This document shows positions 1 to 33,570 of a stretch of 64,000 nt of DNA, piece by piece (position 1 is the stretch's first letter; each line of letters begins with the position of its first letter). Position numbers and translations under genes: made by a program. The notes below the pieces were generated by a model, which saw only the letters and a program-made list of their open reading frames with translations, was not told where the DNA came from and did not search any database. The stretch comes from Massilia mucilaginosa. GTDB lineage: Bacteria; Pseudomonadota; Gammaproteobacteria; Burkholderiales; Burkholderiaceae_D. Location of the stretch: contig NZ_WHJH01000004.1 of the NCBI RefSeq assembly GCF_011682145.1, positions 186,001-250,000 of the forward strand. The letters are read 5' to 3'.

Positions 1-1430
1 TCCAGGCGGCCGGCAAGGCCGTCGAGCACCTTGACCGCCGCTGCGGACAGCCATGGCGTCAAGGCGGGCAAGGCTGCCAGGTGTTGCGGCACCAGTGCGG
101 CCAGCACCGAGCGTGCCGCGCCGGGGGCGCGCTTGTCGGTGGCGATCAATTCGGCCAGGCCGGCGACGGCGGCGAGCGGCCAGCGCGCCGACGCCGACGT
201 CAGGCGCTTGATCGCCTTTTTTGCGGTGATCGACGCCAGCGCGCGGATCGCCTCCGGCGTGCCGATGCTGGCGATGGCGTCGGCGGCCAGGTCGGCGCCG
301 GCCCCGTCGCGCAGCGCCGCCACGGCGTCGGTGCCACGGTCCTGGATGGCGGTCGCAATCATCTGCGGCTTGTCGTACCACGCGAACAGGTAGAAGTCGT
401 CGCACGCCTTGATCGTATCGAGGGCGCACATGCTGGCGGCGTCGCGCACCGTCAGGCGCAGCCACGCCATCGAGGTGGGGTAGACGGGACCGGACGCGGC
501 GACGATGGCGTCCGACAGGCTCGGAGCGTCGGGCAGCAGCACGCCGAACAGCGCTTGCCGGTGCGCCGCCAGCGAAGGCAAACGGTCGCGAACCAGCTGC
601 ACGCAGGCGTCCCATACATCTTGCGGCGCATGCGCCAGATGGGAGCGCAGTGCCAGCTCGGTTTTGCCGAACACGTTTTCGGTGGGGGCGAACCATTGCC
701 CGGCATCGTCGTCGATGCAGATGCCGGGGTTGCGCAGCCCTTGCTGGCGCACGCTGATGCGTTCCATCCGCAGCAAGGTGTCGAGGGCGTACGCGATGCC
801 TTCGCGGGCCACCAGGAAGTCGATGAAAGGCACGCCATCGGACGGCGCCAGCAGGTCGTCGAAGGTGCTCGATAGTGCCAGCAAGACGATGTCGGAGGCG
901 GCGGAGCCGTCGCGCTGCCCGTGTTCGATGCGCTGCGCCGCCTCGTCCATCGCCGGACGCCAGCCCGACGCCGAGAGCGCGGGACTGAGTGGCGCGCATT
1001 GCCGCGCATGGGCCAGGAACAGGTTCCAGCTGGCGTCGGCGTCGATTGCGGGCGCATTGCCCGGGAAGCGGCGCGAGGGCAGGGCCAGCGCCATCATCGT
1101 GGCCGGCATGTCGATCAGCGGGGAGACGGCCAGCCAGGGGGCGATGTCGGACGCGGGCGCGGGCGCCACCACCGGCACTGGTGCCGCCGGCGCGGGCACT
1201 GGCGTTGCCGCCACTGGCGCACCGGCCCCGGTTTCCGCGTAGCCCTTGCCGGTTTTTTCGCGTATCAGCTTGGCCATCGCCGCGCCGGCCGTGGCGGCAT
1301 CCGGATGGTTCTTGGTCTGGACCTTGCCCGCCGTGCCGATCTTGCCGAAGCAGACCGTGACATCGCTGCCGTCCTGGCTCACTTCCCAAAATTTGCTGGA
1401 AACGCCATCGCTCAATTCAAATCGCAGCAT
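1..1430 (-). CDS. WGR-DUF4132 protein, C-terminal part outside window
   Basis: The ATG at 1430 opens a frame of 476 codons that stays open to the window edge, so only the N-terminal ~40% is seen. It starts MLRFELSDGVSSKFWEV and continues with the WGR core (VCFGKIGTAGK) up to KLIREKTGKGYAE at about residue 65. A Pro/Ala/Val-rich linker follows, then the helical region with APWLAVSPLID, LALPSRRFPG, PFIDFLVAREG and ELALRSHLAHAP. The start is supported by GGGATG upstream and by the shared family N-terminus, although the second residue is Leu instead of the usual Arg. It lies 35 bp after the neighbouring copy. Family function is unknown; E. coli relatives are MolR and YehI. Confidence 0.85.
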   Translation of the reverse strand, partial: MLRFELSDGVSSKFWEVSQDGSDVTVCFGKIGTAGKVQTKNHPDAATAGAAMAKLIREKTGKGYAETGAGAPVAATPVPAPAAPVPVVAPAPASDIAPWLAVSPLIDMPATMMALALPSRRFPGNAPAIDADASWNLFLAHARQCAPLSPALSASGWRPAMDEAAQRIEHGQRDGSAASDIVLLALSSTFDDLLAPSDGVPFIDFLVAREGIAYALDTLLRMERISVRQQGLRNPGICIDDDAGQWFAPTENVFGKTELALRSHLAHAPQDVWDACVQLVRDRLPSLAAHRQALFGVLLPDAPSLSDAIVAASGPVYPTSMAWLRLTVRDAASMCALDTIKACDDFYLFAWYDKPQMIATAIQDRGTDAVAALRDGAGADLAADAIASIGTPEAIRALASITAKKAIKRLTSASARWPLAAVAGLAELIATDKRAPGAARSVLAALVPQHLAALPALTPWLSAAAVKVLDGLAGRL

Positions 1431-1465
1431 CGTTCATCCCGAATGTAAAAGTATGGGCGCGCCGC

Positions 1466-4400
1466 TCAGGCGCACAAGTCTTGCATGTCGCGTATCAGTT
1501 CACTGGCGACGATGGAGCCCAGCGTCGACAGAGGATAACAAGCCGCTTTGCCGTTGACTGTCTGGCTATCCGTGACGCGCACTTCCTTCAAGCGCTGTTC
1601 CGGCTCGTGCTCGGGCATGCCGACGATCAGGCCGGGGTCGAGGTGCAGTTCCAGCAGGCGGCCGTCGCCGAGTGGCTTGTAGAACTCCCCGATCCAGCCG
1701 CCGTCCTGCGGGTCGCCGCGACGCCAGCCTTTGTTGGTGAGGCCAAGCACGCGTCCCGTCGGCACTTTTTCGCTGTCCCAGCGCGTCAACGCGAGCGTGC
1801 CCGATTCCGCCCCGGTGAGCGCGTACGTGTCGCGCCCGATCTGGGCAAACGGTTGCAGCAGTTCGTAGTCGGCAAACAGTTGGCCGAACGCGCTTGCCTC
1901 GGCGGCGGGCAGGTCGAGCGCATGCGGAATGCCGATCACAGCCTCCGGCGGCAGGTCGAACACCTCGTCGGCGGCGCTGGTGAGCGCCCCATCCGGTCCC
2001 ACGCGGAAGCACCCGAGCAGTCGCCCGTCCGGGCCTGCCGCATATGCGCCCCACACCAGCCGCTGCACCAGGTGGCGCACCAGCGGGTGCCCCGCGAGGA
2101 AGGTGAAAAAGACCTGCGGCTGCCAGCGCCGCTGCGTGCACATCGCCTGTTCAAGCCGCAGCACCTGCTGCGCGGCGATGGTGCGGGCATCCTTCTTGAG
2201 CAGCTTGAAGCGCTCTTGCGCCGCGCCGGACAATGCGGCGTCGTCGGTTTTCTTCGGCTTGGGCAGGTCGGCCAGGCGCGCGCCGTCGGCATCGCGTACG
2301 TACGGCTTGAGCGTCTCGTCGAAGCCGACCCGGAACTGGCGTGGGCCAAAGTCGAGCAGCAAGGCGCCGTCATCGTCCAGGCCCAGGTCGGGCGCGAGGC
2401 GGTCTTCCAGTTCGTCGACGCTCAGCTTGCGCGCCTCGGCGATCTGGCCGATCTTCTCGCGCGCGTTGTCTTGCAGGGCCTTGAACTTGACCTTCTGAGC
2501 AATCCCGTTGAGCAGCATCAGCGCGGTGTCGGTACCGATCTCGCACAGGATGTCCAGGCCAAGAATGGCGCGCTGGTGCTGGCTTTCGCCCGGCCAGGCA
2601 CGGATCAGCGGCGTGAGCTTGCGCGCGATGTCGTCGTTGCCAAACAGGCGCAGGGCACTGAATGCCCAATTCTCTTTGGCGTCTGCACCGGCGTCGGTCC
2701 ACGCGTTAAACAAGTCCCAGGCAAAATCGGCGAGCGAGGCGCCGGTGCAGACTTGCCGCAGGTGCGCGATGCCAGGGTACACGCCGTCGGCCTGGGGAAA
2801 GCGCAGCATCACGCCGATGGGGTCGAGTGCCGCGTCGGGCAAGGCCTTGCCATTGCTGGCCAGGCGCGGACGGGTCCAGTTACGCGGCATCCAGAAGGCC
2901 GGCAGCGGTCCGATTTTTGCGGGCAGGCGGTCGAGTGGATCTTCGTCGAGCAGGGCGCGCAAGGCTTCGCTGACCTTGCTCTGCTGGTAGCGGCTGGCCA
3001 CATCGGCCAGCAGCGTTTCGTGACCGCCTTCGGCCAGCAGGTGCAGGGCGCGGACGGCGGCGTCGCGCGCGCTGCCGGCTTTGCCGAGGGCCGGCGCAAT
3101 CAGGCCGCAGGCGGCATGTTCTGGATTGTCCAGCAGCCATGCGCGCGCCAGCTCGCGCGCGCTTTTGCTTTTGAGGGTTGCGTACGCGCGCGCTACCGGC
3201 GCGGCCAGGGCGACCACGCCGAAGTAGCGGGCATACGGCAGCTCGTCGGCCGGGCGCCGCTCGCACATGCCCACCAGCGCCGGCAGGCCGGCAAGGCCCA
3301 AGGTGGCGATGGCATAGCCGGGCGAGTTGATCTCGTATTTGGACATGGTGCTCCATACGGCCGCGTTGAACGGCGCCGGCATGTCGGCAATCGCGTGCAC
3401 GCAGCCGCCGATTTCGTAGCCGCCGACCGAGTAGGCTTCCCACAGGGCGACGACCTTGGCGACATCGCCCGCCGCGATGGCCGCCGCCGCGTCGGCGGGG
3501 CCGGGATAGCGTTTCCAGTTGTACGGCCAGGCGTTGTAGCGTTTTTGCTTGAGCAGCTCCTGGCGCTCGTCCTCGCTCCAGCGTATCACCGGCGCCAGGT
3601 CCAGCGGCGCCAGCGTGAGGACGTTGGCGCCCGGCTTCGGCGCCGCCAGCCACGGTGGACTTCTCAAGACCGCCGGCAGCTCGGCCAGGTCGGCCAGGTC
3701 GGCCGGGGCGGCGGCGCGCGCGGCCACGGCGTCGAGCAGCGCGGCCGCCGGGGCCGACATCCATGGCTTGACGTCCGCTACCTGGTCCGCATGGTCCAGC
3801 ACCAGATCTGCAAGCACCGCGCTGGCCGCGGCCGGGGCCTGCTTGGCGGCGGCCAGCTCCGACAGGGCGGCCAGCGCCGCACACGGCCAGCGTTTCGCTG
3901 CCGATGCCAGGCGCTTGAGCGACTTCTTGCTCGCTTCGCAGGCCAGTGCCAGGGCGCGCAGCGCGTCGGGCGTGCCGATATGGGCCAGTGCTTCGCCGGT
4001 CGCATCGATGCCGGCGCCGTCCTTCAACAGGTCAACCGCCTCGATGCCGCGCTCCTGCACCATGGTGGCCACGGCGGCGGGCAGGTTGTAAAAGTAGTGA
4101 ACCGCGTAGGTGCCGGTGGACGGCACGAACGGGTCGAGCGCGCGCAGGGCGGCCGGCGCGCTGGCGCTCAGGCGCAGCCAGGCGGCCGTGTCGACTTCCT
4201 GCTGCGCGAGTGCGAGGGCCAGCGCGTCGGACAGGTCGGGCAGGTCGGGCAGCAGCACGCCGAACAGCGGCTGGCGCCGCACGGGCAATGTCGGCAGCGC
4301 CGCGCGGATCATGCCGACGCACTGCTCCCAAACTTCCTGCGGCGCGTGCGCCAGGTGGGCGCGCATCGCCAGCTCGGTTGATCCGAAGTCGTCATTCGAT

Positions 4401-5134
4401 GGCGAAAACGACCCAATGCCCCGTTCACCCATGTACCAGCACATGCCATACTGGTTGGTGTGTTCTTCGATGCTCACGCGTTCCATGTCGATCAGCACTT
4501 GCAGCGCATACGGCAAGCCTTTGGCGGCCACCAGGAAGTCGAGGAAGGGCGCGCCCTCCGCCGCTGCCAGCTTGTCTTCGACCAGCGTCGACACTGCCAG
4601 CAGCACCAGGTCGGACGCGGGCGAACCGCTGCGCAGATTGCCGCTGATGCGGGCGACGGCTTCGCTCACGGCGTCCTGGAAGCTTTTGGGGGAGTTGTCG
4701 GGGGCGACGTCGGCATAGCGCCGCACGCGCGAGATGAACAGGTCCCAGCAGGCCGCCGCGTCGGCGTTCGGCGGTGCACCGGGAAAGCGGCGCGACGCCA
4801 TGGCCCTGGCCGCGAGGGCACGCGGCAGGTCGATCAGCGGGGCGACAGCCAGCCATGGCGCAACCTCGCCCGTTGCCGGCGTGGAGACGGGAGCGACTGG
4901 CGCCGGCGGCGGCGTCGGGCACGCGCCAGCATTGATTTCGGCGTAGCCCTTGGCGCACTTTTCGCGAATGAGTTTTTCGATCGCCGCCGCAGCTTTGCCG
5001 GCATCGGCGTGTTGCTTGGTCTGGCTGGTGCCGGCGCTGCCGATCCTGCCGTAGCAGACGTTGACGTCGCAGCCGTCCTGGCCTATCTGCCAGAATTTAT
5101 CGGACGCCCCATCGCTCAATTCAAATCGCCGCAT
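1466..5134 (-). CDS. WGR-DUF4132 protein, full-length copy
   Basis: The product has 1222 residues, close to the size expected for E. coli YehI-type proteins. Residues 1-66 form a WGR domain (KFWQIGQDGCDVNVCYGRIG), then a Pro-rich linker to about 92. The middle is a long alanine/leucine-rich helical region resembling HEAT-like repeats. The C-terminal DUF4132-type part holds LAPDLGLD (~913), LLLDFGPRQFRVGFDE (~926), LLKKDARTIAAQQVLRLE (~977), HPLVRHLVQRLVWGAY (~1015) and LFADYELLQPFAQIGRDTY (~1085). It ends SELIRDMQDLCA. GGAGATGG precedes the ATG. It can serve as the reference copy for judging deletions in its neighbours. WGR domains are associated with nucleic-acid or PARP-linked proteins; the role here is unknown. 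Confidence 0.9.
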   Translation of the reverse strand: MRRFELSDGASDKFWQIGQDGCDVNVCYGRIGSAGTSQTKQHADAGKAAAAIEKLIREKCAKGYAEINAGACPTPPPAPVAPVSTPATGEVAPWLAVAPLIDLPRALAARAMASRRFPGAPPNADAAACWDLFISRVRRYADVAPDNSPKSFQDAVSEAVARISGNLRSGSPASDLVLLAVSTLVEDKLAAAEGAPFLDFLVAAKGLPYALQVLIDMERVSIEEHTNQYGMCWYMGERGIGSFSPSNDDFGSTELAMRAHLAHAPQEVWEQCVGMIRAALPTLPVRRQPLFGVLLPDLPDLSDALALALAQQEVDTAAWLRLSASAPAALRALDPFVPSTGTYAVHYFYNLPAAVATMVQERGIEAVDLLKDGAGIDATGEALAHIGTPDALRALALACEASKKSLKRLASAAKRWPCAALAALSELAAAKQAPAAASAVLADLVLDHADQVADVKPWMSAPAAALLDAVAARAAAPADLADLAELPAVLRSPPWLAAPKPGANVLTLAPLDLAPVIRWSEDERQELLKQKRYNAWPYNWKRYPGPADAAAAIAAGDVAKVVALWEAYSVGGYEIGGCVHAIADMPAPFNAAVWSTMSKYEINSPGYAIATLGLAGLPALVGMCERRPADELPYARYFGVVALAAPVARAYATLKSKSARELARAWLLDNPEHAACGLIAPALGKAGSARDAAVRALHLLAEGGHETLLADVASRYQQSKVSEALRALLDEDPLDRLPAKIGPLPAFWMPRNWTRPRLASNGKALPDAALDPIGVMLRFPQADGVYPGIAHLRQVCTGASLADFAWDLFNAWTDAGADAKENWAFSALRLFGNDDIARKLTPLIRAWPGESQHQRAILGLDILCEIGTDTALMLLNGIAQKVKFKALQDNAREKIGQIAEARKLSVDELEDRLAPDLGLDDDGALLLDFGPRQFRVGFDETLKPYVRDADGARLADLPKPKKTDDAALSGAAQERFKLLKKDARTIAAQQVLRLEQAMCTQRRWQPQVFFTFLAGHPLVRHLVQRLVWGAYAAGPDGRLLGCFRVGPDGALTSAADEVFDLPPEAVIGIPHALDLPAAEASAFGQLFADYELLQPFAQIGRDTYALTGAESGTLALTRWDSEKVPTGRVLGLTNKGWRRGDPQDGGWIGEFYKPLGDGRLLELHLDPGLIVGMPEHEPEQRLKEVRVTDSQTVNGKAACYPLSTLGSIVASELIRDMQDLCA

Positions 5135-5170
5135 TCCATCTCCATAAAGTTAAAGCATGTGCATGTCGTC

Positions 5171-7675
5171 TCAGACGCGCAATTGTTCCACATCCCAGTG
5201 CAGCTCGCTGAAGACAACTGGTGCGAGCTGAGGGAACATGACCGATTCGCCTACGCCACCCCACGCGTCGGCACGTGCGACCTCCACGATATCGGGCTTC
5301 TGGGGCGGGCAATTGCGAATGTTCCCGGGACTCAGACCAGGTGAAATGTGCATGATCGCCAGATGTTTGACGTCAATCCGTTTCGTGAATTCGCGCACAA
5401 GGCCTCCGTCTCCCGCGCCTGCCTGGAGCCAACCACGATTGAAGAGCGCCACCAGGCGGCTGGCAGCTATGGGTGTTTCCCGGCCCGGCAGGAGACATTC
5501 GTTTGCAAAGGCGTAGTCCGTCCCCTGTGTCTCGCGGCCGATCTGGATAAATGGCTGCGGCAGCTCGTGGTCGGGGAACAGCTGGCCCAAACCCGCACCG
5601 TCGTTCGCTTCGAGCTCCATTTCATGCACGATGCCAATCCGGAAAAGCTCACCCTGCGGCAGCTCGAACGGTTCGTTGCGGGTGTCGATGAAGGTGCCGT
5701 CGGGCGCCACGCGAAAGCACGCCGTCAGCGCGCCGCGGTAGTTGCCACCGCAGCGCAACAGGTAGACGCCCCACACCAGGCGCGGCACCAGATAGCGCAG
5801 CAGCGGATGACCAACCAGCGCCGTGCGGAACACTGCCGGATTCCAGCGGTATGACGTGCACATTGCCATCTCCAGCCGTTGCACCTGCTGCGCGGCCAAA
5901 TTGCGCACATCTTTCTTGAGCAGCTTGAAACGCATCACGGCGGCGCGCGCAAGCTCGGCGTCGTCGGTGCTTTTTGGTTTGGGAAGCCGGAACAGGCGCA
6001 CGCCAGCGTGGTTGCGCACATACGGTTTACAGCGTGCGTCGAAACCGACCCGGAACTGGCGCGGGCCGAAGTCGAGCAGCATCTCGCCCTGGGCGTCGAG
6101 ATCGAGGCGGGGCGCCATGTAGTCGTGCAGTTCCACTGGTATCAATCCGCGCTCGTCGGCGATTGCCGCAATCTTGTCGCGTGCGCGGTTCTGCACATCC
6201 TTGAACTTGCGCTCCATGGCGATCCCATTGAGCAGCATGAGCGCCACCTCGCTGCCGATCATCGCAAGGATGTCCAGGCCGGAGGCCGCGCACGCGCATG
6301 GATTTTTTCCAGGCCATGCAGTGAGCAGCGGGGCAAGTCGACGTGCGCAGTCGTCATTGCCCAGCAGACCGAGCGCAAGATAGGCCCAGTTGTCGCTGGC
6401 CGGTGCACCGTGGTCAAACCAGGCGCGGAACAGGTCCCAGGCAAAGTCGGCCAGCGAGTCCGGCGTGCACGCCGCGCGCACCTGGGCCAAGCCGGCGTAC
6501 TCGCCTTCCCCGCAAGGGAAACTGAGCATGGTGCCCAGGGTATCGAGCGCGCCATCCGGCAGCGCCTTGCCGTTAGCGGAAAGAAGAGGGCGCCTCCATG
6601 AACGCGGTGTCCAGAATGCCGGCAGCGTGCCGATGTCGGCGGGATACAGGTCGAGCGGCTCTTCGTCGATCAGTGCGCGCATGGCGCGCGTGACGGCTGG
6701 CCTGTCGTAGCGCAGGGCGACCTTCATCAGCATGTCGGCGTGGCCGGCCGCAGCGAGCATGCGCAGCGCCTGGCGCGCATGGTTGCGCGCATCCCCGCCG
6801 ATGCCCAGCGCAGCCGCAGCCAGGCCGCAGACGGCGTGTTCGGGAAAAGCCAGCAGCCAGTTGCGGGCGCTGGCCTGTAGCGCCTTGCCTTTCAGGGTGG
6901 CGTACGCGCGCGCAACCGGCGGCGCCAGTTCAGTGGCGCCGAAGTACTGTGCATACGACAGGTTCTGCGCAAGATGGCGCGTGACCATGGCGATCAGGCC
7001 GGGCAAGCCATCCAGTCCGAGCCTGGCGATGGCATAACCTGGATGATTGACCTCCATGTGCGCCACCGCATTCCAAACGTGCGCGTTCAGTGGTACCGGC
7101 AGATCGGCAATCAGGCGTGTCGCGTCACCCGCGTGCGCGCCCGCATTGATGCAGGCGCGCCAGGCCGCCAGCATGGCGTCGGCTGCATGTGTCTTCATCG
7201 CGGAACGCAGACTTGAAAGCGCCTCGCCCTTGCCCTGTCGTCCCGGGATGATGTTGCTGACATGCTGTCGTTGGCTGACATTCTTGCGTTGCAGCTCGCT
7301 CCAGTGCACGACCGGGGCCAGCGCCAGCGGATCGAGTGCGAGTGCCGGCAGGGCTTTGCAGGTCGCCCCGGCCCAGCGCGGGCGGATCAGCGTCTCCGGC
7401 AGGTCCGCATCGGCGCCCGGCTCCACCGGCGGTGCCGCGATCGGCACCGGTGCAGGTGTGGGCATGCCAGCGGCAATCTCCACATAGCCCATGCTGGACC
7501 TTTTGCGGCGCAGCCGATCGATCGCCGCCGCCGCTTTGGCATCGTCGGCATGGCTGATGGTGTGCGTTTGTCCGACCGTGCCCACCTTGCCATGGCGGAC
7601 ATGCACGTCGGATCCATCCTGTTCCACCTCCCAGAATTTGTCCGAGACGCCATCGCCACATTCAAATCGCCGCAT
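5171..7675 (-). CDS. WGR-DUF4132 protein lacking the N-terminal middle region
   Basis: The product has 834 residues, about 390 fewer than full-length copies. The WGR domain (MRRFECGDGVSDKFWEVEQ to about residue 66) and a proline-rich linker are present. The sequence then passes directly to LALAPVVHWSELQRK, which in full copies sits near residue 510. The segment carrying SRRFPG, FLDFLVADKG and LALRAHLAHAP is absent. Everything downstream is kept, including LLDFGPRQFRVGFDARCK, LLKKDVRNLAAQQVQRLE and HPLLRYLVPRLVWGVY. The C-terminus is atypical (VVFSELHWDVEQLRV instead of SELIRDMQ). GGTGATCC precedes the ATG. The deletion is in frame, so it may be a functional short form or decay that kept its frame by chance. 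Confidence 0.87.
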   Translation of the reverse strand: MRRFECGDGVSDKFWEVEQDGSDVHVRHGKVGTVGQTHTISHADDAKAAAAIDRLRRKRSSMGYVEIAAGMPTPAPVPIAAPPVEPGADADLPETLIRPRWAGATCKALPALALDPLALAPVVHWSELQRKNVSQRQHVSNIIPGRQGKGEALSSLRSAMKTHAADAMLAAWRACINAGAHAGDATRLIADLPVPLNAHVWNAVAHMEVNHPGYAIARLGLDGLPGLIAMVTRHLAQNLSYAQYFGATELAPPVARAYATLKGKALQASARNWLLAFPEHAVCGLAAAALGIGGDARNHARQALRMLAAAGHADMLMKVALRYDRPAVTRAMRALIDEEPLDLYPADIGTLPAFWTPRSWRRPLLSANGKALPDGALDTLGTMLSFPCGEGEYAGLAQVRAACTPDSLADFAWDLFRAWFDHGAPASDNWAYLALGLLGNDDCARRLAPLLTAWPGKNPCACAASGLDILAMIGSEVALMLLNGIAMERKFKDVQNRARDKIAAIADERGLIPVELHDYMAPRLDLDAQGEMLLDFGPRQFRVGFDARCKPYVRNHAGVRLFRLPKPKSTDDAELARAAVMRFKLLKKDVRNLAAQQVQRLEMAMCTSYRWNPAVFRTALVGHPLLRYLVPRLVWGVYLLRCGGNYRGALTACFRVAPDGTFIDTRNEPFELPQGELFRIGIVHEMELEANDGAGLGQLFPDHELPQPFIQIGRETQGTDYAFANECLLPGRETPIAASRLVALFNRGWLQAGAGDGGLVREFTKRIDVKHLAIMHISPGLSPGNIRNCPPQKPDIVEVARADAWGGVGESVMFPQLAPVVFSELHWDVEQLRV

Positions 7676-7689
7676 GGATCACCATATAG

Positions 7690-7716
7690 TTAGTCATCGC
7701 GAATCAGTTTTCCGAC
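7690..7716 (-). pseudogene. Relic of the 3' end of a deleted array copy
   Basis: The spacer between two copies is 55 bp here instead of 35-37. Read on the minus strand it contains codons for VGKLIRDD followed by TAA. This resembles the conserved C-terminal tail SELIRDMQ of the array genes, and the ACTGATTCGCGA core matches at nucleotide level. It follows an intact stop codon at 7731, so it is not the end of the neighbouring gene. I read it as a footprint of a nearly fully deleted copy. The match is short. Confidence 0.5.
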
Positions 7717-7730
7717 CGCTACCGCACCGC

Positions 7731-11477: not shown

Positions 11478-11514
11478 TCTCTGTCCTGTCATGATGATGT
11501 GTGTGCGTGCCGTC

Positions 11515-15114: not shown

Positions 15115-15399
15115 TCAGGCGCCCAGCGATTGCAGGTCGCGTATCAGTTCGCTGACCACGACCGCCGGCAGCGTGCCAAGGGCGACGGACGTGTCGATGT
15201 TGTCCCATTGTCCCACGCGCCCGACCACAACCGGGTCGAGGGTCTGCACTTCTCCTTCGCGCATCATGCCGCCGAGCGGCTTGTTGAAGTCCCGGATCGA
15301 ACCGCCATCCTGCGCTTCGCCGCGCGCGGCCAGTGCCACCTGGCTGTCAACCTCCCCGAATTTGTTGGAAGCGCCTTCGCTATGTTCAAATCGCCGCAT
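15115..15399 (-). CDS. 94-residue remnant: WGR start joined to DUF4132 tail
   Basis: This open frame has the family start (MRRFEHSEGASNKFGEVD, residues 1-18) fused to the family end (QDGGSIRDFNKPLGG to VVVSELIRDLQSLGA). About 1100 residues of a normal copy are missing between them. The WGR core itself is gone and the Trp of KFW is replaced by Gly. The ribosome site AAGGAAAG is intact, and the spacers are 15 bp upstream and 36 bp downstream. It is probably the product of one large in-frame deletion, perhaps after several steps. Whether a peptide is made is unknown; a dominant-negative or adaptor role is conceivable but speculative. Confidence 0.72.
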   Translation of the reverse strand: MRRFEHSEGASNKFGEVDSQVALAARGEAQDGGSIRDFNKPLGGMMREGEVQTLDPVVVGRVGQWDNIDTSVALGTLPAVVVSELIRDLQSLGA

Positions 15400-19098: not shown

Positions 19099-19134
19099 CG
19101 TGTGTCCTGAGTGTTGAATGGTGTCGGCGCCGTC

Positions 19135-22578: not shown

Positions 22579-22605
22579 TGTCTGCCTTGTGTCGTAGGTG
22601 GCGAT

Positions 22606-26085: not shown

Positions 26086-26120
26086 TACCTACCTTGTCGT
26101 TGTCGTTGCAGGGCGCCCGA

Positions 26121-29100
26121 TCAAGCGCACAGTTTGTTCATGTCGCCAATCAGCTCGCTGACTGTCGCCGCCCCGAGGGACGACAAGGGCACGCTCTCGC
26201 GGATGTCCTTCGGGCCGCCGCGCCCGATGCAGACCGACCCGAGCGTCTGTTCCGCAAACTCGTGCGCCGAGCCGGCGCGGATGCCGGGCGCCATGTCCAG
26301 CGTTGCGGTGTAGCCGTCGCCGAGCACCTTGAGCAGGTCCCGGATCATGGCGCTGTCGTGCGTTTCGCCAAGCCGCCATCCCTGGTTCAGCAGGCCAAGG
26401 AGGCGCCCGGTCGGCACCACTTCGCCGTCCCAGCGACCGAGCGCGTGATACGTCTCTTCACCCTCGTCCAGGGTGTGCGTGTCGCGCCCGATCTGCACGA
26501 ATGGCTGCAGCAGCTCGTAATCGGCAAACAGCTGGCCGAAGGCGGTGGCGTCGGCCGGCGCCATATCGAGCGCATGCGGGATGCCGATCACGGCGCCTTC
26601 TCCTTGCGGCAGCGCGACGGCGTCATCGGCCGCATCGCTGAAGGCGCCTTCGGGCGTCACGCGAAAGCAGGCCTGCAACCGGCCGTGCGCATCGTACACG
26701 CCCCACACAAGACGCTGGGCCAGATGGCGTACCAGCGGGTGCGTAACCATGCAGTCGTTGAACACCTGCACCGGCCAGCGCCGCTGCGCGCACATGGCCA
26801 GCTCCAGCCGCAGCACCTGCTGCGCGGCGATGGTGCGCGCGTCCTTCTTGAGCAGCTTGAAGCGCTTGACCGCGTCCGCCGCCAGTTCGGCGTGGTCGGT
26901 CCTTTTCGGTTTGGGCAGGTCGGCACTGCGCGTGCCGTCGGCGTCGCGCACGAACGGCTTGAGCGTCTCGTCGAAGCCAACGCGGAACTGGCGCGGGCCG
27001 AAGTCGAGCAGCAGGGTGCCCTGTTCATCGAGGCCCAGGTCGGGCGCAAGGCGGTCTTCCAGTTCGTCGCTCGTCAGGCCGCGCGCTTCGGCGATCGCCT
27101 TGATTTTCTCCTGCGCGCGGTCTTGCAGCGGCTTGAACTTGAGCTTGAGGGCGATCCCGTTGAGCAGCATCAGGGCGGTGTCGCTACCTATCAGCGCCAG
27201 TACGTCCAGGCCCGTGACGGCGCGCGCATGCAGGCCGTGACCGGGCCAGACCCGCAACAACGACGTGAGCCTGCGCGCGGTGTCGTCGTTGCCGAGCAGG
27301 CCAAGCGCGTAAAAAGCCCAGTTCTCTTTCGCCTTGGCGCCGTCGTCCACCCAGGCGAAGTACAGATCCCAGGCGAAGTCGGACAGCGACTCGGGCGTGC
27401 ACGCTTGTTTGATCTGGTCGATGCCGGCGTACACGCCGTCGGCGTGCGGGAAGCGCAGCATGATGGCGATGGCATCCATCGCCGCATCGGGCAGCGCCTT
27501 GCCGTTGGCGGCCAGCACGGGACGGCTCCACACCAGCGGCGTGCAGAAGCCCGGCAGCTTGCCGATCTTGGCCGGATAATTCTGCAGCGGTCCCTGGTCG
27601 AGCAGGGCGCGCATGGCGGCGCCGACGTCGTCCCGGCCGTAGCGGCCGGCCACCTCGATCAGCAGGTCGCGATGGCCGGCGCGTTCGAGCAGCCCGAGCA
27701 CCCGGCGCGCATGGTCGCGCCCAGCGCACACTTTGCCCAGGGCGGGGGCGATCAGGGCGCAGGCGGCATGCTCGGGAAAACGCAGGAACCAGGCACGCGC
27801 CATGGCCAGCAGCGCAGAGGTCTTGAGCGTGGCGTACACGTGCGCCATCGGCGCGGCCAGTTCGACGGCGCCAAAACACGTGACGTATTCCAGTTCCTGG
27901 GAAGGCGCGCGCGTGAACGTCGCGATCAGGCCGGGCAGGGCGGGCAGGCCGATCCGCGCGAGCGCCGCGCCGGGGTGGTTCATGCCCAGCGTGACCACCG
28001 CGTTCCAGACCCTGGCGTTGATCGGCTCGGGCAGGGCGACGATGGCGCTGGTGGCGTCCTCGATGGCCTGCCCCGGCGCGAGGCAGTCGATCCACCCGGC
28101 CAGGCTGCCGTCAAGGTCGACCGCCGCCACCGCCGCTTTCGCTTCCGCGCGCCGGCTCTTGATGTGGCCCGTGCCGTCGTAAAAGCTGCGCTTGCCGGCG
28201 AGGTGTTCGCGTTCGGCCTCGCTCCAATCGGCGACGGGGGCCAGCGCCAGGGGAGCGAGCGCGAAAGCGGCGGCTTCGCGCGTGGCCGGCGCGCGCCAGG
28301 GCGGGGCGGCCAGTACCGGCGGCAGGTCGCTGGCGGCGGCGCAGTCGCGCACAGTGATGTACTGCGCGGCGGCGACCGACAGCACCTTCCAGGCCGGCGC
28401 CGTCATCCAGGGCGCGAGCGCGGGAACCCGGTGCGCATGCCTGGCCACCGCAGCGGCGAGGAGCTGGCGGGCGCGATCCGGGCCTTGCTCCCTTGAGGCG
28501 ATCACCTGGCTCAGCCCCGCCATCGCGGCGTCGGGCCAGCGCTCGACCGCCTCGACCAGATAGCCGAACTGCCACTCGTAGTAGTGGCGCTGCGCGAGGG
28601 CGGCGATCGCTTCCGGCGTGCCGATGCAGCCGAGCGCCTGCGCCGTCTGATCGGCCCAGCTGCCGCCCATGATCGCATCGATCGCCGCGGCGCCGCGATC
28701 CTGGAGCGCAGTGGCCAGGCCACGCAGGGAGCTGTGAAAGGTGTCGCGCCACAGGCCCTCGCCGCTCGGCCACAGGCGCAGCGCCTGTTTTGCCTCGGGT
28801 GAGGTGGCGTACACGATCAGCCATGCGTAGTTGCTGTTCCACTTCGGCAGTCCTTTGTCGTCCGTCTCCGGCTGCAGCATCAGCGCCAGTTCGTTGGCCA
28901 GTTCCGGCGCATCGGGCAGCAGCGCGGCCAGCAGCGGACGAGCCCTGGTATGCAGGGTCCCTGCCGCCGCGCGCGCGCGCTGCACGCATTGTTCCCACAG
29001 CGCTTGCGGGGCATGCGCGAGATGGGCGCGCAGCGCCAGCGTGGTGACGCCGTAAAGGCGATGGACACCCCAGCTCACGTGGTCGGCCGTGTACACGCTG

Positions 29101-29807
29101 TCGTCGTTGTCGTAATCCGGATGGATCCAGATCCGTTGCAGCATCATCACCACATCGAACGCGTACAGCAGACCCTTGTCGGCGACCAGCACATCGAGGA
29201 ACGGACAGCCGTCGGACGCCGGTTCGTATTCTTCGTTGACGGTTTCGGTCGCCAGCAAGACGGCATCGGACTCCGGCGAGCCATGCCGCTCGCGCCGGGA
29301 AATGCGGGCGATGGCTTCGATGACGCCCGGGCCGTCGGGGGCGCCGCCGGCGCGCGCTCGCAAAGGGCAATGCTCGCGCACGCGCTTGAGGTACAGCGCC
29401 CAGCGCAAATCGGCGTTGGTGCTGGGTGGCGGACCGGGGTGGCGGCGCGAGGGCAGGACATGCGCGGCCAGTTCCGGCGACAGTTGGACCAGCGCATCGG
29501 CGGCTAGCCATGGCGGTGTGTCGCCCGGTAGCGCCAGCGGGGTGGCGGCAGCTGGCGCAGCCGGCTTGGCTGCGGCGGGAGCCGCCACGACTGCCGCCGC
29601 GGCACCGGTTTCGGCATAGCCCTTGGCCGTTTTCTCGCGAATCAGCTTGTCCAGCGCCGCCGATGCCCTGGCCTGGTCGGGGAAGCTCTTGCACTGGCGC
29701 TGTCCGGCCGTGCCGATCTTGCCGAAGCCGATATGCAGCTCGCTCCCCGCTTGTTCAACCTCCCAGAATTTGCTGGAAACGCCGTCACTCAATTCAAATC
29801 GCCGCAT
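26121..29807 (-). CDS. WGR-DUF4132 protein, full-length copy
   Basis: The product has 1228 residues from the ATG at 29807; an ATG at 29822 would add MNGQT but lacks a ribosome site, whereas GGGCAG fits 29807. The WGR domain reads KFWEVEQAGSELHIGFGKIG. An Ala/Pro linker (70-110) precedes AHVLPSRRHPG. The conserved blocks LLLDFGPRQFRVGFDETLK, LLKKDARTIAAQQVLRLE, HPLVRHLAQRLVWGVY and LFADYELLQPFVQIGRDTH are all present, ending SELIGDMNKLCA. It is most alike, by eye, to the WGR-deleted copy at 22606-26085, suggesting those two are sister duplicates. Confidence 0.9.
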   Translation of the reverse strand: MRRFELSDGVSSKFWEVEQAGSELHIGFGKIGTAGQRQCKSFPDQARASAALDKLIREKTAKGYAETGAAAAVVAAPAAAKPAAPAAATPLALPGDTPPWLAADALVQLSPELAAHVLPSRRHPGPPPSTNADLRWALYLKRVREHCPLRARAGGAPDGPGVIEAIARISRRERHGSPESDAVLLATETVNEEYEPASDGCPFLDVLVADKGLLYAFDVVMMLQRIWIHPDYDNDDSVYTADHVSWGVHRLYGVTTLALRAHLAHAPQALWEQCVQRARAAAGTLHTRARPLLAALLPDAPELANELALMLQPETDDKGLPKWNSNYAWLIVYATSPEAKQALRLWPSGEGLWRDTFHSSLRGLATALQDRGAAAIDAIMGGSWADQTAQALGCIGTPEAIAALAQRHYYEWQFGYLVEAVERWPDAAMAGLSQVIASREQGPDRARQLLAAAVARHAHRVPALAPWMTAPAWKVLSVAAAQYITVRDCAAASDLPPVLAAPPWRAPATREAAAFALAPLALAPVADWSEAEREHLAGKRSFYDGTGHIKSRRAEAKAAVAAVDLDGSLAGWIDCLAPGQAIEDATSAIVALPEPINARVWNAVVTLGMNHPGAALARIGLPALPGLIATFTRAPSQELEYVTCFGAVELAAPMAHVYATLKTSALLAMARAWFLRFPEHAACALIAPALGKVCAGRDHARRVLGLLERAGHRDLLIEVAGRYGRDDVGAAMRALLDQGPLQNYPAKIGKLPGFCTPLVWSRPVLAANGKALPDAAMDAIAIMLRFPHADGVYAGIDQIKQACTPESLSDFAWDLYFAWVDDGAKAKENWAFYALGLLGNDDTARRLTSLLRVWPGHGLHARAVTGLDVLALIGSDTALMLLNGIALKLKFKPLQDRAQEKIKAIAEARGLTSDELEDRLAPDLGLDEQGTLLLDFGPRQFRVGFDETLKPFVRDADGTRSADLPKPKRTDHAELAADAVKRFKLLKKDARTIAAQQVLRLELAMCAQRRWPVQVFNDCMVTHPLVRHLAQRLVWGVYDAHGRLQACFRVTPEGAFSDAADDAVALPQGEGAVIGIPHALDMAPADATAFGQLFADYELLQPFVQIGRDTHTLDEGEETYHALGRWDGEVVPTGRLLGLLNQGWRLGETHDSAMIRDLLKVLGDGYTATLDMAPGIRAGSAHEFAEQTLGSVCIGRGGPKDIRESVPLSSLGAATVSELIGDMNKLCA

Positions 29808-29850
29808 GGTCTGCCCATTCATATCATATGTTATGCCAGGCGCCCATTCG

Positions 29851-29886
29851 GGCGCACCGGAACGTCTTGTCCCGCATCAGTTCACT
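29851..29886 (-). pseudogene. Relic of the 3' end of another deleted array copy
   Basis: The spacer upstream of the copy starting at 29807 is 109 bp, the longest in the array. On the minus strand it holds codons for SELMRDKTFRCA, clearly related to the family tail SELIRDMQxLCA, but no complete gene. The conserved CAGTGAACTGAT stretch supports common origin. It is best explained as the leftover of an almost completely deleted unit between two intact genes. Confidence 0.55.
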
Positions 29887-29916
29887 GTGCGCGACCGGCC
29901 ACCAGGCCGGCGTGCA

Positions 29917-32900
29917 TCACGCGCACAATTGCTCCATATCCCGGATAAATTCGCTGACAACGATCGGGTCGAGCGCGGCCAGGCGCGCATCTTCGTCCGC
30001 GCCGATGTGCTCGAGGACCAGCTTGACCAGCGTCTGTTCTTCGTCACCGTCGATAAAGCCTGCCGTCAGGCCGGGCGCGATGATCAGGTGCGCCAGCTTG
30101 CTCTGGCCGAACCACCGCGAAAATTTGACCGTCTCGCCGCCGCTGCCGATCTCGCGGGACCAGCCCCGGTCGACGAGTCCGAGCAGGCGGCCGGCACTGA
30201 TCACCGCGCCGTTCCAGCGCGTCAGCGCCCGGCTGCCGCGTTCAGCCTGGGTCAGCGCGTGCGTGTCGCGCGCGAGCTGGGCGAACGGCTGCAGCAGTTC
30301 GTAGTCGGCGAACAGCCGGGCGAAGGCGGCGATGAGGGCCGGGTCGAGCTCCACCGGGTGCGGGATGCCGATCCGGATATCTTCCCCCGGCGCCAGCGCA
30401 AAGGCGTCGTCCGCGTGGTCGGTGTAGCCGCCGTCGGGCGCCACGCGGAAGCTGGCCAGCAGCTCGCCGTCGCCGCCGTACGCGCCCCAGACCAGGCGCT
30501 GCACCAGATGACGCAGCAGCGGGTGGCCAGCCAGGAAGTCCCGGAATGCCTGCGCTGTCCAGCGCCGCCGCCTGCACATTGCCTGTTCCAGGCGCCGCAC
30601 CTGCTGCGCGGCGATGGTGCGCGCATCCTTCTTGAGCAGCTTGTAGCACTCCACGGCGGCTGCCGCCAGTTCGGCGTCGTCGGTTTTCTTCGGTTTTGGC
30701 AGCTCGTCCAGGCGCGCACCAAGCGCCTCGCGCACGGTCGGCTTGAGCGCCTCGTCGAAGCCGACGCGGAACTGGCGCGGGCCGAAGTCGAGCGTCATTT
30801 CGCCGTCTTCATCAAGGCCCAGGTCGGGAGCCAGGCGGTCTTCCAGTTCCTCGGAACCGAGTTCGAGGGCTTCGGCGATCTCGCCGATCTTGTCGTCGGC
30901 GTGGGACTGCAGCGCGTAAAACTTGGCCTTGCTGGCGATTCGGTGCAGGAGCATGAGGGCGGTGTCGCTGCCGATCATGGCCAGCACGTCGACACCCACC
31001 AGGGCGCGCGCGTTGAGTTTTTCGCCGGGCCAGGCGCGCACCAGCGGCGTGAGCTTGCGCGCGCTGTCGTCGTTGCCAAGCAGGCCAAGTGCGTAAAACG
31101 CCCAGTTTTCCTTGGTCTCGCCGCCACGTTCGGCCCAGGCGCGGAACAGCTCCCAGGCGAAATCGGCCAGCGACTCCGGCGTGCACGCCTGTTTGAGCTG
31201 GGTCACGCCGGCGTAAATGCGGTCGGTGTGCGGAAAGCGCAGCATGACGCCGATGTTGTCGAGCGCGGCGTCGGGCAGCGCCTTGCCGTTGCTGGCCAGG
31301 CGAGGGCGGGTCCATCCCAGCGGATCCCAGAAGTACGGCATTTTGCCGATCTTGGGCGGATGCAGCGTGAGCGGATCTTCATCGAGCATGGCGCGCATGG
31401 CGCCGGTAACGGCGGCGTCGCCATAACGGGCGGCGACCTCCATCAGCACGCCGTCATGGCCGGCGCCGGCCAGCATGCGCAGGGCCTGGCGCGCCTGGTC
31501 GCGCGGCGCGCCCGGTTCGCCCAGGGCGGTGGCGGTCAGGCCGCAGGCGGCATGCTCGGGATTGCGCAGCAGCCAGCTGCGCGCACTGGCGATCATCTTT
31601 CCCGGCTTGGGCATGGCGTAGGCACGCGCCAGCGGCGCCGCCAGCTCGACCGCACCGAAGTGCTGCGCGTAGTGCAGGTTATCCGGAAGCTGGTGTTCGA
31701 TCAGGGCGACCAGTCCGGGCAAGCCGGCCAGGCCCACGGCGGCGATGGCGCAGCCGGGGTGGTTGATGCCGGTTGCGGCCAGCGCGTTCCAGACCTGCAC
31801 GTTCAGCGGCGCCGGCAGCGCCGCGATCAGGCGCGCGCCTTCCACCGGCGGTTTGTAGGAGCCGGTGCTGGCGCGCCATGCCGCGATCAGCGCATCGGCG
31901 TCGCCAGCCGCGATCGCGTCGTTGGCAAACGGCGTGGCCGGGCCGTGGTAGTGAAGGTAGCGGGGCTCCTTGCCCAGTTGTTCGCGCTGCTGCGCGCTCC
32001 AGCGTTCGAGCGGCGCCAGGGGCAGCGGGGCCAGCGCCAGCGCGGGGGCGGATGCCGGCTTCGTCGATGGGTTCTTCCAGGGCGGGTTGACCAGCACCGG
32101 TGGCAGGTCGGCCGCGTCGGCGATGTCGGGTACGCCGAGGTAGCGCGCGGCGGCGTTCGAGAGTACCTTCCACGCACCAGCCGACAGCCATGGCTTGAAC
32201 GCGGGGACCATGGGGGCGTTGGTGGCGAGTACCTCGGCCAGCGCGCAGCGTGCGTAGCGCGGCCCGCAGCCGTCTTTGGCAATCAGTTCGCTCAGCACGG
32301 CCATCGCCGCCTGCGGCCAGCGCGTAGCCGCCGCCTCGAAACGACTGGACGAATGCGCCAGCGCCGTCATCGCGTCGAGCGTGCCGATGCAACTGAGACC
32401 GTCCGAGGTTTCCTCGAACAGGGCATGCGGCGCAAGTACTGCGACCGCGTGGGCGCCACGGTCGCACACCACGGTGGCCACGTTCACTGCCGACCTGCCG
32501 ATATTGAACTCGCCGCAGCTTGCCGCCTGGGGCCAGCGGCGCAACGCCTTGATGGCGGCGTCCGATGTGGCGTAAGCCTTGAACCACTCATAGGGTTCGA
32601 ACCACGGGGCAGGCGGCTGGCCTGGTGGCGCCTGCGCCGCCAGGATCAGTTCATTGGCCAGGTCCTGCGCCTCGGGCAGCAGGATGGGCAGCAGGGGACG
32701 GCGCCATTCCGGCAGCGATGGCGCGGCCAGCCGCATCAACCGCTCGCCGTCGTTCCAGTCCTCCTCGCGCGCCTGCGCCAGGTGCTCGCGCAGCAGCAAG
32801 TCGCCCTCGCGATAGCCGCTGGACCAGTTGTAGCCGATATTGTCGACGTCGGCGCTGATGGAGTACGCCAGGCCGTAGCCCTCACGGCCCTGTTCGAGGA

Positions 32901-33570
32901 TCATTCCCAGCCGCCGTAGATAGACTGCGACGGCGTAGGGCAATCCTCTGTCGGTCACCAGGAAGTCGGTGAAGGCGCTGCGATTGACGTCGCCGAAGGC
33001 GGATCCTGTTGTCGATTCAAGCAGCATCATGATGGCGTCCGACGTTGGCGAGCCGCGCCGCCGGTCCTGAGCGATGCGTTCGATGGTTTCGGTCACGGCA
33101 TCGCGGTAAACGGGATCGGAGACCTCCGCACTGAACCTGCAATGGTGGGTGACCAGGCTGAAGTCGTCCCAGCATGCATCGGCATCGATGGTGCGCGGTA
33201 CACCTGGAAAGCGGCGCGACGGCATCGCCAGCGCCGCCAGTTCGGGCGATATGTCGACCAGCGGCTCGAGCGCCAGCCATGGCGCGACGCGGCTGTGCGC
33301 GGAGACGGCGGGTGCGGGAGGGGCGGGAGCGGCCGGCGCCGGCGCGGCGGCAGGTGGAGATGCAGCGCCGCTGTCAGCGTAGCCCTTGCCGGTCTTTTCG
33401 CGTATCAGCTTCTCGATCGCGACCGTCGCCGCGGCTTGGTCAGGATGGGTCTTGGTTTGCCGTTGACCCGACGTGCCCACCTTGCCGTAGCAGACATGCA
33501 CCTCGCAGCCATCTTGTTCGACTTCCCAGAACTTGTTGGAAGCGCCTTCGCTAAATTCGAAACGTCGCAT
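29917..33570 (-). CDS. WGR-DUF4132 protein, first gene of the array
   Basis: The product has 1217 residues from the ATG at 33570 (MRRFEFSEGASNKFWEVEQ). Longer starts at 33576 or a TTG at 33585 exist, but TAGGA lies five bases before 33570 and homology starts there. The WGR core is VCYGKVGTSGQ, with a linker rich in Ala and Pro to about 100. Its helical middle is among the most divergent: AMPSRRFPG, FTDFLVTDRGLPYA and a long variable segment ending DLLLREHLAQAREEDW. The C-terminal blocks are standard (TLDFGPRQFRVGFDEALK, LLKKDARTIAAQQVRRLE, HPLLRHLVQRLVWGAY, SEFIRDMEQLCA). As the most upstream gene it sits next to the only plausible operon promoter. Confidence 0.9.
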   Translation of the reverse strand: MRRFEFSEGASNKFWEVEQDGCEVHVCYGKVGTSGQRQTKTHPDQAAATVAIEKLIREKTGKGYADSGAASPPAAAPAPAAPAPPAPAVSAHSRVAPWLALEPLVDISPELAALAMPSRRFPGVPRTIDADACWDDFSLVTHHCRFSAEVSDPVYRDAVTETIERIAQDRRRGSPTSDAIMMLLESTTGSAFGDVNRSAFTDFLVTDRGLPYAVAVYLRRLGMILEQGREGYGLAYSISADVDNIGYNWSSGYREGDLLLREHLAQAREEDWNDGERLMRLAAPSLPEWRRPLLPILLPEAQDLANELILAAQAPPGQPPAPWFEPYEWFKAYATSDAAIKALRRWPQAASCGEFNIGRSAVNVATVVCDRGAHAVAVLAPHALFEETSDGLSCIGTLDAMTALAHSSSRFEAAATRWPQAAMAVLSELIAKDGCGPRYARCALAEVLATNAPMVPAFKPWLSAGAWKVLSNAAARYLGVPDIADAADLPPVLVNPPWKNPSTKPASAPALALAPLPLAPLERWSAQQREQLGKEPRYLHYHGPATPFANDAIAAGDADALIAAWRASTGSYKPPVEGARLIAALPAPLNVQVWNALAATGINHPGCAIAAVGLAGLPGLVALIEHQLPDNLHYAQHFGAVELAAPLARAYAMPKPGKMIASARSWLLRNPEHAACGLTATALGEPGAPRDQARQALRMLAGAGHDGVLMEVAARYGDAAVTGAMRAMLDEDPLTLHPPKIGKMPYFWDPLGWTRPRLASNGKALPDAALDNIGVMLRFPHTDRIYAGVTQLKQACTPESLADFAWELFRAWAERGGETKENWAFYALGLLGNDDSARKLTPLVRAWPGEKLNARALVGVDVLAMIGSDTALMLLHRIASKAKFYALQSHADDKIGEIAEALELGSEELEDRLAPDLGLDEDGEMTLDFGPRQFRVGFDEALKPTVREALGARLDELPKPKKTDDAELAAAAVECYKLLKKDARTIAAQQVRRLEQAMCRRRRWTAQAFRDFLAGHPLLRHLVQRLVWGAYGGDGELLASFRVAPDGGYTDHADDAFALAPGEDIRIGIPHPVELDPALIAAFARLFADYELLQPFAQLARDTHALTQAERGSRALTRWNGAVISAGRLLGLVDRGWSREIGSGGETVKFSRWFGQSKLAHLIIAPGLTAGFIDGDEEQTLVKLVLEHIGADEDARLAALDPIVVSEFIRDMEQLCA

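Follow-up and report, generated by a model that had tools for sequence, protein, structure and literature searches.

The closest described counterpart of the locus analysed here is the gene row yehH-yehI-yehK-yehL-yehM-yehP-yehQ of Escherichia coli MG1655, which holds the same families in the same order as the operon of Massilia mucilaginosa. Operons of this YehL type occur in E. coli, actinomycetes, myxobacteria and planctomycetes; our literature search found no study of their function. The available part of PMC3893208 portrays MoxR proteins in general as chaperone-like proteins that pair with VWA cofactors. The MoxR-vWA ternary conflict systems (VMAP, iSTAND, TERNS3) likewise combine a MoxR AAA+ protein and a vWA protein with adjacent components, according to the accessible portions of PMC7159879 and PMC8195603. 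The main text of PMC7159879 contains none of the terms SWIM, WGR, MolR or YehL.

The window, a stretch of 64,000 nucleotides from M. mucilaginosa, contains ten minus-strand genes in succession at positions 1-33585, which the preliminary description had correctly recognized as paralogues. A DUF4132 domain was matched far above the Pfam cut-off in nine of them. The window start truncates the tenth, copy A, of which the part inside the window has WGR; its complete gene carries both domains. One further gene lies outside the window, which brings the array to 11 DUF4132 genes arranged head to tail on the minus strand (11 consecutive matches on the contig, 16 in the whole genome).

29917..33585, minus strand: copy I, first operon gene, WGR-DUF4132, 1222 aa from an upstream TTG (Pfam WGR 2.6e-16, DUF4132 5.4e-50)
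26121..29822, minus strand: copy H, WGR-DUF4132, 1233 aa (Pfam)
22606..26085, minus strand: copy G, DUF4132, 1159 aa, only the first WGR residues left (no Pfam WGR match; translation)
19135..22578, minus strand: copy F, DUF4132 without WGR, 1147 aa (Pfam)
15415..19098, minus strand: copy E, WGR-DUF4132, 1227 aa (Pfam)
15115..15399, minus strand: 94-aa relic of another copy, a WGR start fused to a C-terminal end (BLAST match to the C-terminus of a DUF4132 protein; frame reading)
11515..15078, minus strand: copy D, WGR-DUF4132, 1187 aa, DUF4132 domain partly missing relative to orthologues (Pfam, orthologue comparison)
7731..11492, minus strand: copy C, WGR-DUF4132, 1253 aa (Pfam)
5171..7675, minus strand: short copy, 834 aa, with WGR and a large internal deletion, resuming near full-length residue 492, with losses among the conserved residues (Pfam, residue check)
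1466..5134, minus strand: copy B, WGR-DUF4132, 1222 aa (Pfam)
1..1430, minus strand: copy A, WGR-DUF4132, truncated by the window start (full 1229 aa at L009:15741-19430)
L009:13789-15750, minus strand: 653-aa DUF4132 gene without WGR, last of the array, outside the window (Pfam)

The array is made up of nine full-length copies (two without WGR), the 834-aa and 653-aa copies and the relic. Both domains were detected by Pfam in 8 of the 11 genes; copies F and G and the 653-aa copy gave DUF4132 only. In pairwise comparison the full-length paralogues, nine in all, share 43-67% identity, which excludes chance. Some features attributed to the array needed correction. Shared termini were found as far as DUF4132 is concerned, which is present throughout, but WGR had no Pfam match at 19135-22578 and 22606-26085. 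Frames are mostly retained, the internally deleted 834-aa copy and the relic being the exceptions. Spacers are short (-10 to 94 bp) except for a single gap of 336 bp, which is occupied by the relic.

Nearly all of 23 conserved residues that we checked are kept in the nine full-length copies, copy D lacking three. Within the DUF4132 domain, residues H, R, D, H, D, Y and Q are kept in every full-length copy. A predicted structural model (pLDDT 87.5) consists of a WGR domain, helical repeats and a beta-rich C-terminal domain. In a fold search with this model, the top PDB match was the WGR part of 2ra8, followed by HEAT/ARM proteins, none with E below 1e-3; the search identified no cofactor site or enzyme fold in DUF4132.

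The DUF4132 genes lie directly upstream of a MoxR gene on the same strand. Four genes continue the array, the MoxR gene beginning 52 bp past the last array gene. This context was missed by the preliminary description because the genes lie outside the window.

L009:12621-13736: MoxR, AAA_5 (Pfam)
L009:10291-12624: DUF5682 (Pfam)
L009:9143 to ~10294: VWA_CoxE (Pfam; start set by the orthologue in genome G003)
L009:7185-9146: SWIM (Pfam)

The MoxR protein has the P-loop GEPGTAKS, whose G, K and S are invariant in 83 aligned rows, and FEE at Walker B. The VWA protein carries the MIDAS motif DQSGS and the SWIM protein two CxC..CxH motifs. For DUF5682, ordered motifs of the Tiki/TraB/EreA superfamily (GxxH, E, R-E/D/N-xxMA, GxxH) were found in most of 28 rows. 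Profile-profile comparison gave no match to this superfamily, the positive control being missed too; PDB profiles gave no match to a Tiki/TraB/EreA protein and the fold search none at E below 1e-3. DUF5682 is a candidate Tiki-type hydrolase, the motifs serving as a lead. A 910-aa ORF after the SWIM gene was considered as a sixth partner and rejected: its dN/dS is 1.3-1.6 with dS of 0.03-0.04 and its Pfam matches lie on the opposite strand, which shows it to be antisense to metabolic genes.

The array followed by MoxR, DUF5682, VWA and SWIM genes reproduces the order of E. coli yehH-I-L-M-P-Q. The locus is therefore a YehL-type MoxR operon in which the yehH/yehI part is expanded; only DUF4132 is multiplied, while the remaining families occur once each. 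E. coli has yehI and the pseudogene yehH, with the small yehK between, whereas Massilia has eleven DUF4132 genes and no yehK. MoxR of the E. coli records is 76-77% identical to the Massilia protein. Calling such genes ‘MolR-like regulators’ obscures the AAA+ system of several genes to which they belong.

The association is maintained in other bacteria. At 81 loci (80 collected by MoxR similarity, plus E. coli), DUF5682 was found at 81, DUF4132 at 75, VWA at 74 and SWIM at 72; at two of them (L046, L054) the DUF4132 gene follows SWIM instead of preceding MoxR. Among 398 Pseudomonadota genomes, DUF4132 was present in all nine with this type of DUF5682, nearby on one contig in eight, and in none of the five having only the other DUF5682 type. 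A second MoxR-DUF5682-VWA module in the same genome (C383, L171) has the identical order, but neither DUF4132 nor SWIM was found in the 19 kb extracted there. DUF4132 genes had been said to occur normally in one or two copies, which does not apply everywhere: across 49 further genomes carrying the operon, the number of matches ranges from 1 to 20. The highest numbers belong to actinomycetes (Catenuloplanes 20 matches, Actinomadura xylanilytica 18), where some of the genes lie beside the same operon. Among the matches listed, these genes are scattered or grouped in roughly twos to fours, in contrast to the eleven in one operon of Massilia.

In five genomes of the same genus the operon occupies one common site as a single block of 14.8-44.6 kb, where two close relatives have only 96-100 bp. 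Alignment to these two empty sites defined the edges.

33586..33755, no strand: right edge of the block absent from the relatives
contig position ~175178, no strand: left edge of the block, at the end of a PLP-enzyme gene

Local expansion was confirmed, and the array is neither identical nor static in relatives: full-length copies number from 2 to 9 across the five genomes, with broken copies interspersed. The copies sort into ten groups common to two to five species, most members being open frames of about 1150-1260 codons. Copy A is present in all five genomes. Genome G004 has only A and B intact, a copy fragment overlapping the start of B; G000, G003, G006 and G009 contain relics or broken copies. 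Group J adjoins MoxR in G009 and G006. Within the genus the block is either there or missing as one unit, and it changes as individual copies are gained or decay. With a full-length copy number that varies from 2 to 9, near relatives whose site is empty, and copies that can be matched between species, the variable partner and the target of the machine are directly testable; the genus is a natural copy-number experiment on the target of an AAA+ machine.

Copy turnover is evident, but selection for diversity, which had been proposed on account of the expansion, was not demonstrated. Gene-wide dN/dS of orthologous copy pairs is 0.12-0.44 and never above 1. Values are 0.02-0.09 for MoxR, 0.12-0.23 for A, the lowest of all copies and the one common to the five genomes, 0.18-0.25 for B and 0.39-0.44 for I. 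They tend to rise away from MoxR, not strictly, as F (0.24-0.30) lies below D and E, and J is at 0.24. The C-terminal half is the conserved half between paralogues: identity is 31-45% in the windows covering residues 101-460 and 63-73% in those covering 741-1100. Diversifying selection in the N-terminal half was not shown: the ratio of N- to C-half identity is 0.59 (sd 0.06) for paralogues and 0.51 (sd 0.03) for 15 loci of other bacteria with one DUF4132 gene beside the operon, using pairs with overall identities of 45-60% (46 of 105) and 45-62% (29 of 36). Single-copy loci vary just as much in the N-half, and weak constraint may be all that lies behind this variation. Nor were halves visibly shuffled between groups: nine of ten groups are clades in both half trees (32 rows). 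In the N-half tree, group H breaks up, its member from G006 branching outside a cluster of the remaining H sequences and G. Group J joins A in the N-half tree only and may therefore be an old chimera, a doubtful case. Excess amino-acid change or segment exchange between copies was not found at the level of gene-wide and window averages and of the two halves.

We consider it nearly an even call that one AAA+/VWA machine uses the DUF4132 copies of the expanded yehH/yehI part as alternative HEAT-repeat subunits, either adaptors or clients. The machine, with its MoxR P-loop and VWA MIDAS, would be encoded once and aided by DUF5682 and the SWIM protein. The WGR-HEAT-DUF4132 proteins would serve as interchangeable large adaptors, WGR and the HEAT-like solenoid binding a target and the conserved C-terminal half docking on the shared machine, which might remodel the target, or process it if DUF5682 is a hydrolase. 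Additional copies would provide more targets or conditions per machine. Copy A, kept in all five genomes, may be the core subunit, and copies closer to the operon start would tend to be more dispensable. In favour of this reading are the gene order shared with E. coli, the co-occurrence at the 81 loci and in the Pseudomonadota genomes, the multiplication of DUF4132 alone, the dN/dS values, the conserved C-terminal half and residues, the domains of the structural model and the description of MoxR proteins in PMC3893208. Several observations speak against adaptors. The extra divergence of the copies relative to single-copy loci lies mainly in the C-tail (1101-1222), on the side of the proposed docking. 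Decay of duplicates is suggested by the 94-aa relic, by the residues lost from the 834-aa copy and by the broken copies in G003, G006 and G009. The DUF4132 genes C33 and C111 have no machine genes within the 19 kb taken around each, the dN/dS trend is not strict, and the N-half varies as much where there is a single copy.

Alternatively, the locus may undergo birth and death of copies without new function, tandem duplicates arising easily, persisting for a time under relaxed constraint and decaying, with only A and B mattering. This somewhat unlikely alternative agrees with the rise of dN/dS away from MoxR, with the relics and broken copies in four genomes, with G004, and with the N-half being free of excess divergence. 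It conflicts with ten groups kept in two to five species, mostly as open frames at dN/dS 0.12-0.44, and with the conserved residues retained in the nine full-length copies.

That the copies each recognize a different invader, with MoxR, VWA and DUF5682 as response arm in the manner of the ternary systems, we regard as unlikely. Presence or absence of the whole block at one site in near relatives, the turnover of copy number, one plasmid copy adjoining a type I restriction system and up to 20 DUF4132 matches in actinomycete genomes would suit it, as would the MoxR plus vWA core common with the systems in the portions of PMC7159879 and PMC8195603 cited above. However, the Massilia MoxR is of another type (16.9 bits with the bpMoxR model, cut-off 27), and Pfam matched neither a VMAP, iSTAND or TERNS3 third component nor an effector domain on the VWA protein among the operon proteins. 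Of seven proteins scanned with PADLOC profiles, the five other than DUF4132 proteins gave nothing and the two array proteins only a weak WGR match. Around the operon elsewhere, in a count covering loci L043-L092 without a matched control set, 114 flanking ORFs gave no more than 7 with a match to a PADLOC model, three of them GlgB-like. No gene-wide dN/dS exceeds 1 and there was no reshuffling since the species split.

It is equally improbable that the DUF4132 proteins are clients, matured or activated by MoxR-VWA as metalloenzymes are by MoxR/CoxD-type machines, the genus having multiplied the client. Known MoxR proteins mature specific complexes, according to the part of PMC3893208 cited above, the VWA protein belongs to the CoxE family, the title of a 1990 paper calls molR essential for molybdate use in E. 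coli, and the seven invariant DUF4132 residues are what an enzyme might keep. Against this stand the fold search, with neither cofactor site nor enzyme fold, and the DUF4132 genes occurring without the machine nearby.

A further reading is unlikely: the chromosome of Massilia may encode a repertoire of subunits for target recognition, as many as nine full-length WGR-HEAT-DUF4132 proteins, plugging into one shared AAA+/VWA machine with a candidate Tiki-type hydrolase. Sister species would then have different repertoires of one modular, receptor-swapping surveillance system.

A DNA-damage (SOS) response system is very improbable. The WGR domain hints at one, the accessible text of PMC11039860 and PMC8533742 lists E. 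coli molR as LexA-regulated, and a gene recognized as lexA by its translation lies some 1 kb upstream of the array. SOS control of the array was rejected: no LexA box was found ahead of it, both perfect cores in the window precede lexA itself, and perfect cores 5' of the first DUF4132 gene occur at 1 of 64 loci (E. coli promoter not among them) against 0.63 expected.

Transcription of the array may start from the following site.

33676..33704, minus strand: promoter-like site ahead of copy I, in a block conserved among the five same-genus genomes (promoter match; alignment)

It is the only minus-strand promoter match in window positions 1-34000, which is about the chance number. A single promoter-like site and short gaps are consistent with one putative transcript. 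A weak terminator-like match is located at the boundary between copies B and A.

On the minus strand of the window, from 33585 to 1, all genes of the array in this 7.7-Mb genome encode DUF4132 proteins. Most combine WGR and DUF4132 according to Pfam; two differ:

19135-22578, minus strand, DUF4132 without WGR
22606-26085, minus strand, DUF4132 without WGR

The tenth array gene is truncated by the window start and complete beyond it, where an eleventh encodes a DUF4132 protein of 653 aa without WGR. DUF4132 hits number 16 genome-wide, 11 of them consecutive on this contig. The array genes are spaced by -10 to 94 bp, with a single exception of 336 bp, a gap containing a 94-aa relic in which a WGR start is fused to the final residues of a copy. 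Two solitary full-length DUF4132 genes also occur (L010:6585-10031 and L011:5937-9806, on separately excised stretches); no MoxR operon was found within 19 kb around each.

The array belongs to an operon in which the DUF4132 part is multiplied and the machine genes are single. It is followed directly by genes for MoxR (AAA_5), DUF5682, VWA_CoxE and SWIM proteins, the successive gaps being 52, -4, -4 and -4 bp when the VWA gene is started as in its orthologue. The order in Escherichia coli K-12 is similar: yehH (pseudogene), yehI (DUF4132), yehK, yehL (MoxR), yehM, yehP (VWA), yehQ (SWIM). A literature search, to which subscription papers were mostly inaccessible, found no functional study of a yehI/L/M/P/Q-type operon. 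A 1990 paper on molR reportedly concerned molybdate use. SWIM, WGR, MolR and YehL are absent from the main text of a paper on ternary systems (PMC7159879). The Walker B motif of MoxR (residues 163-164 of the product of L009:12621-13736, on the excised operon stretch) reads FEE, not the usual DE, in all 83 rows of the MoxR alignment.

Purpose-built profiles were applied to 81 loci: E. coli and 80 found by MoxR similarity (one genome per species), which are top matches by identity and so not a random sample; some lie on contigs that end early. MoxR and DUF5682 were present in all 81, DUF4132 in 75, VWA in 74, SWIM in 72 and WGR in 43. Among the hosts are Pseudomonadota, Actinomycetota, Myxococcota and Planctomycetota. 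We also drew 398 Pseudomonadota genomes separately; few candidates were scored in each, so per-genome counts are lower bounds. DUF4132 was found in 11 of these genomes and DUF5682 in 14. Nine genomes, ours included, had DUF5682 of the operon type (329-371 bits), and all nine had DUF4132, near it on the same contig in eight and on two contigs in the other (G320). DUF4132 occurred in none of the five genomes with only the other DUF5682 type (>650 bits), and without DUF5682 in two genomes. Our genome has a second such operon on another contig (L012:649-12969), with three smaller DUF4132 genes (635, 961 and 983 aa, no WGR), MoxR, DUF5682 and VWA; similar loci occur in M. aquatica, G009 and M. atriviolacea (4 copies). 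A third MoxR-DUF5682-VWA cluster (L171:8452-14063) has no DUF4132 or SWIM within the 19 kb examined.

The block is present or absent as a unit. On one side it is bordered by a PLP-enzyme gene, on the other by a region that includes lexA and dnaB; the distance from the PLP-enzyme gene to dnaB is measurable on one contig in 14 of 17 same-genus genomes. The PLP enzyme lies 48.6 kb from dnaB in our genome, 44.9 in G009, 39.9 in M. aquatica, 35.7 in M. frigida and 19.5 kb in M. atriviolacea, and 2.8-8.2 kb in the nine others. By alignment the block measures 44,578, 40,872, 36,003, 31,948 and 14,760 bp, respectively, and its position is occupied by 96 bp in G016 and 100 bp in G002. Both fall within a clade of seven close species in the flank-gene tree, which does not separate gain from loss. 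The array and machine genes are likely one transcript. The only minus-strand promoter-like site in window 1-34000 precedes the first array gene, and the sequence around it is conserved across the five carriers, including M. atriviolacea, which lacks the first genes. Promoter matches are no more numerous than chance would give, and the boundary of copies B and A carries a weak terminator-like match (1475-1457), so we rate a single transcript as likely only. About 1 kb from the array lies a gene that we take from its translation to be lexA (34660-35352), with two perfect LexA-box cores upstream (35308-35340); the other four carriers share both boxes.

Our genome has nine full-length open copies, of 1140 aa or more (A, nearest MoxR, to I, the first gene), G009 eight, M. 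aquatica six, M. frigida five and M. atriviolacea two; all five also have shortened, split or relic pieces. The copies form ten groups, each common to two to five species (C-terminal tree, 53 rows; half trees, 32 rows). Nine are clades in both the N-half and C-half trees, the exception being H, whose members do not group together in the N-half tree. The M. frigida members of D and H (about 60% and 69%) are far more diverged than the remaining members. The simplest reading of these trees is that the duplications predate the split of the species sharing them, although transfer between species may also have made groups common. The copy adjoining MoxR is the 653-aa copy in our genome, A in M. aquatica and M. 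atriviolacea, and J, a further group, in G009 and M. frigida. The 49 other operon genomes have 1 to 20 DUF4132 hits each: 1-4 in the named proteobacterial ones, myxobacteria excepted, and up to 20 in actinomycetes. Among the matches listed for them no array is as long as ours, because adjacent DUF4132 runs are short.

Nei-Gojobori dN/dS of orthologue pairs was 0.02-0.09 for MoxR, 0.10 for VWA (one pair), 0.11-0.18 for SWIM and 0.15-0.22 for DUF5682. For the copies it was 0.12-0.23 (A), 0.18-0.25 (B), 0.21-0.24 (C), 0.23-0.43 (D), 0.34 (E), 0.24-0.30 (F), 0.35 (G), 0.27-0.41 (H), 0.39-0.44 (I) and 0.24 (J). Constraint thus tends to drop with distance from the machine genes, F and J being exceptions. 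The C-half is conserved: our paralogues share 63-73% identity in windows of residues 741-1100 versus 31-45% in those of 101-460. The preliminary description had proposed selection for diversity; in the N-half, single-DUF4132 loci of other bacteria, taken at similar overall identity, speak against this, as their N/C contrast is equal or stronger (ratio 0.51 versus 0.59 in the array). The last 120 residues (1101-1222) are clearly more diverged in array copies (0.42-0.47 versus 0.60-0.64 in single-copy loci), as, to a lesser degree, are residues 801-920 and 1041-1100.

The model of copy B (1198 residues, omitting the last 24; pLDDT 87.5, pTM 0.71) comprises a WGR domain, a long run of helical repeats and, at the C-terminus, a domain rich in beta structure; its PDB matches were the WGR of 2ra8 (E 1.6e-3), then generic HEAT/ARM proteins. 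The nine full-length copies retain almost every one of the 23 conserved residues that were checked; D lacks three through a deletion, and several are gone from an 834-aa copy. The DUF5682 model (pLDDT 89.4) had no PDB match with E below 1e-3. Its conserved motifs, GxRHHSP, EGP, RExxMA and GG[FY]H, are similar, in the same order, to motifs of TraB and EreA proteins, a superfamily whose His/Glu residues are described in PMC6254334. Profile comparison with TraB/EreA gave no match, and as the positive control TraB-EreA also failed it is uninformative; a link of DUF5682 to Tiki stays a lead.

Remodelling machines are described for other MoxR proteins (PMC3893208), and by likeness to these MoxR and VWA together would form one, with the DUF4132 proteins as alternative large adaptors or clients. 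We tentatively prefer alternative adaptors. The readings considered overlap, so their probabilities need not total one. Birth-and-death of copies seems to us rather unlikely as the explanation, and that the proteins are clients is unlikely. A conflict repertoire, also unlikely, would fit the patchy presence of the whole block, the copy turnover, MoxR matches (E up to 1e-60) in 36 of 72,556 plasmid records, several of megabase size, and an Iodobacter plasmid operon adjoining a type I restriction system. However, the machine proteins have no PADLOC match, of 114 flanking ORFs (mechanically called, from loci L043-L092 only) no more than 7 have any, the 25 listed of the 51 Pfam families in these ORFs are mostly metabolic, transport or signalling, and only one of 50,697 phage records matched.

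The Iodobacter operon (L172, plasmid pl1) has two DUF4132 genes; the plasmid is mobilizable, and IS elements as well as the restriction system are adjacent. Long antisense open frames are a trap of GC-rich genomes, and a 910-aa frame (L009:4027-6759) was rejected as a gene: it is antisense to a GATase/Pribosyltran gene and a PLP-enzyme gene, and its dN exceeds dS, which indicates a noncoding frame. Unrelated to the array, a frame of 1491 aa at window 50500-54975 carries a TPS secretion domain.
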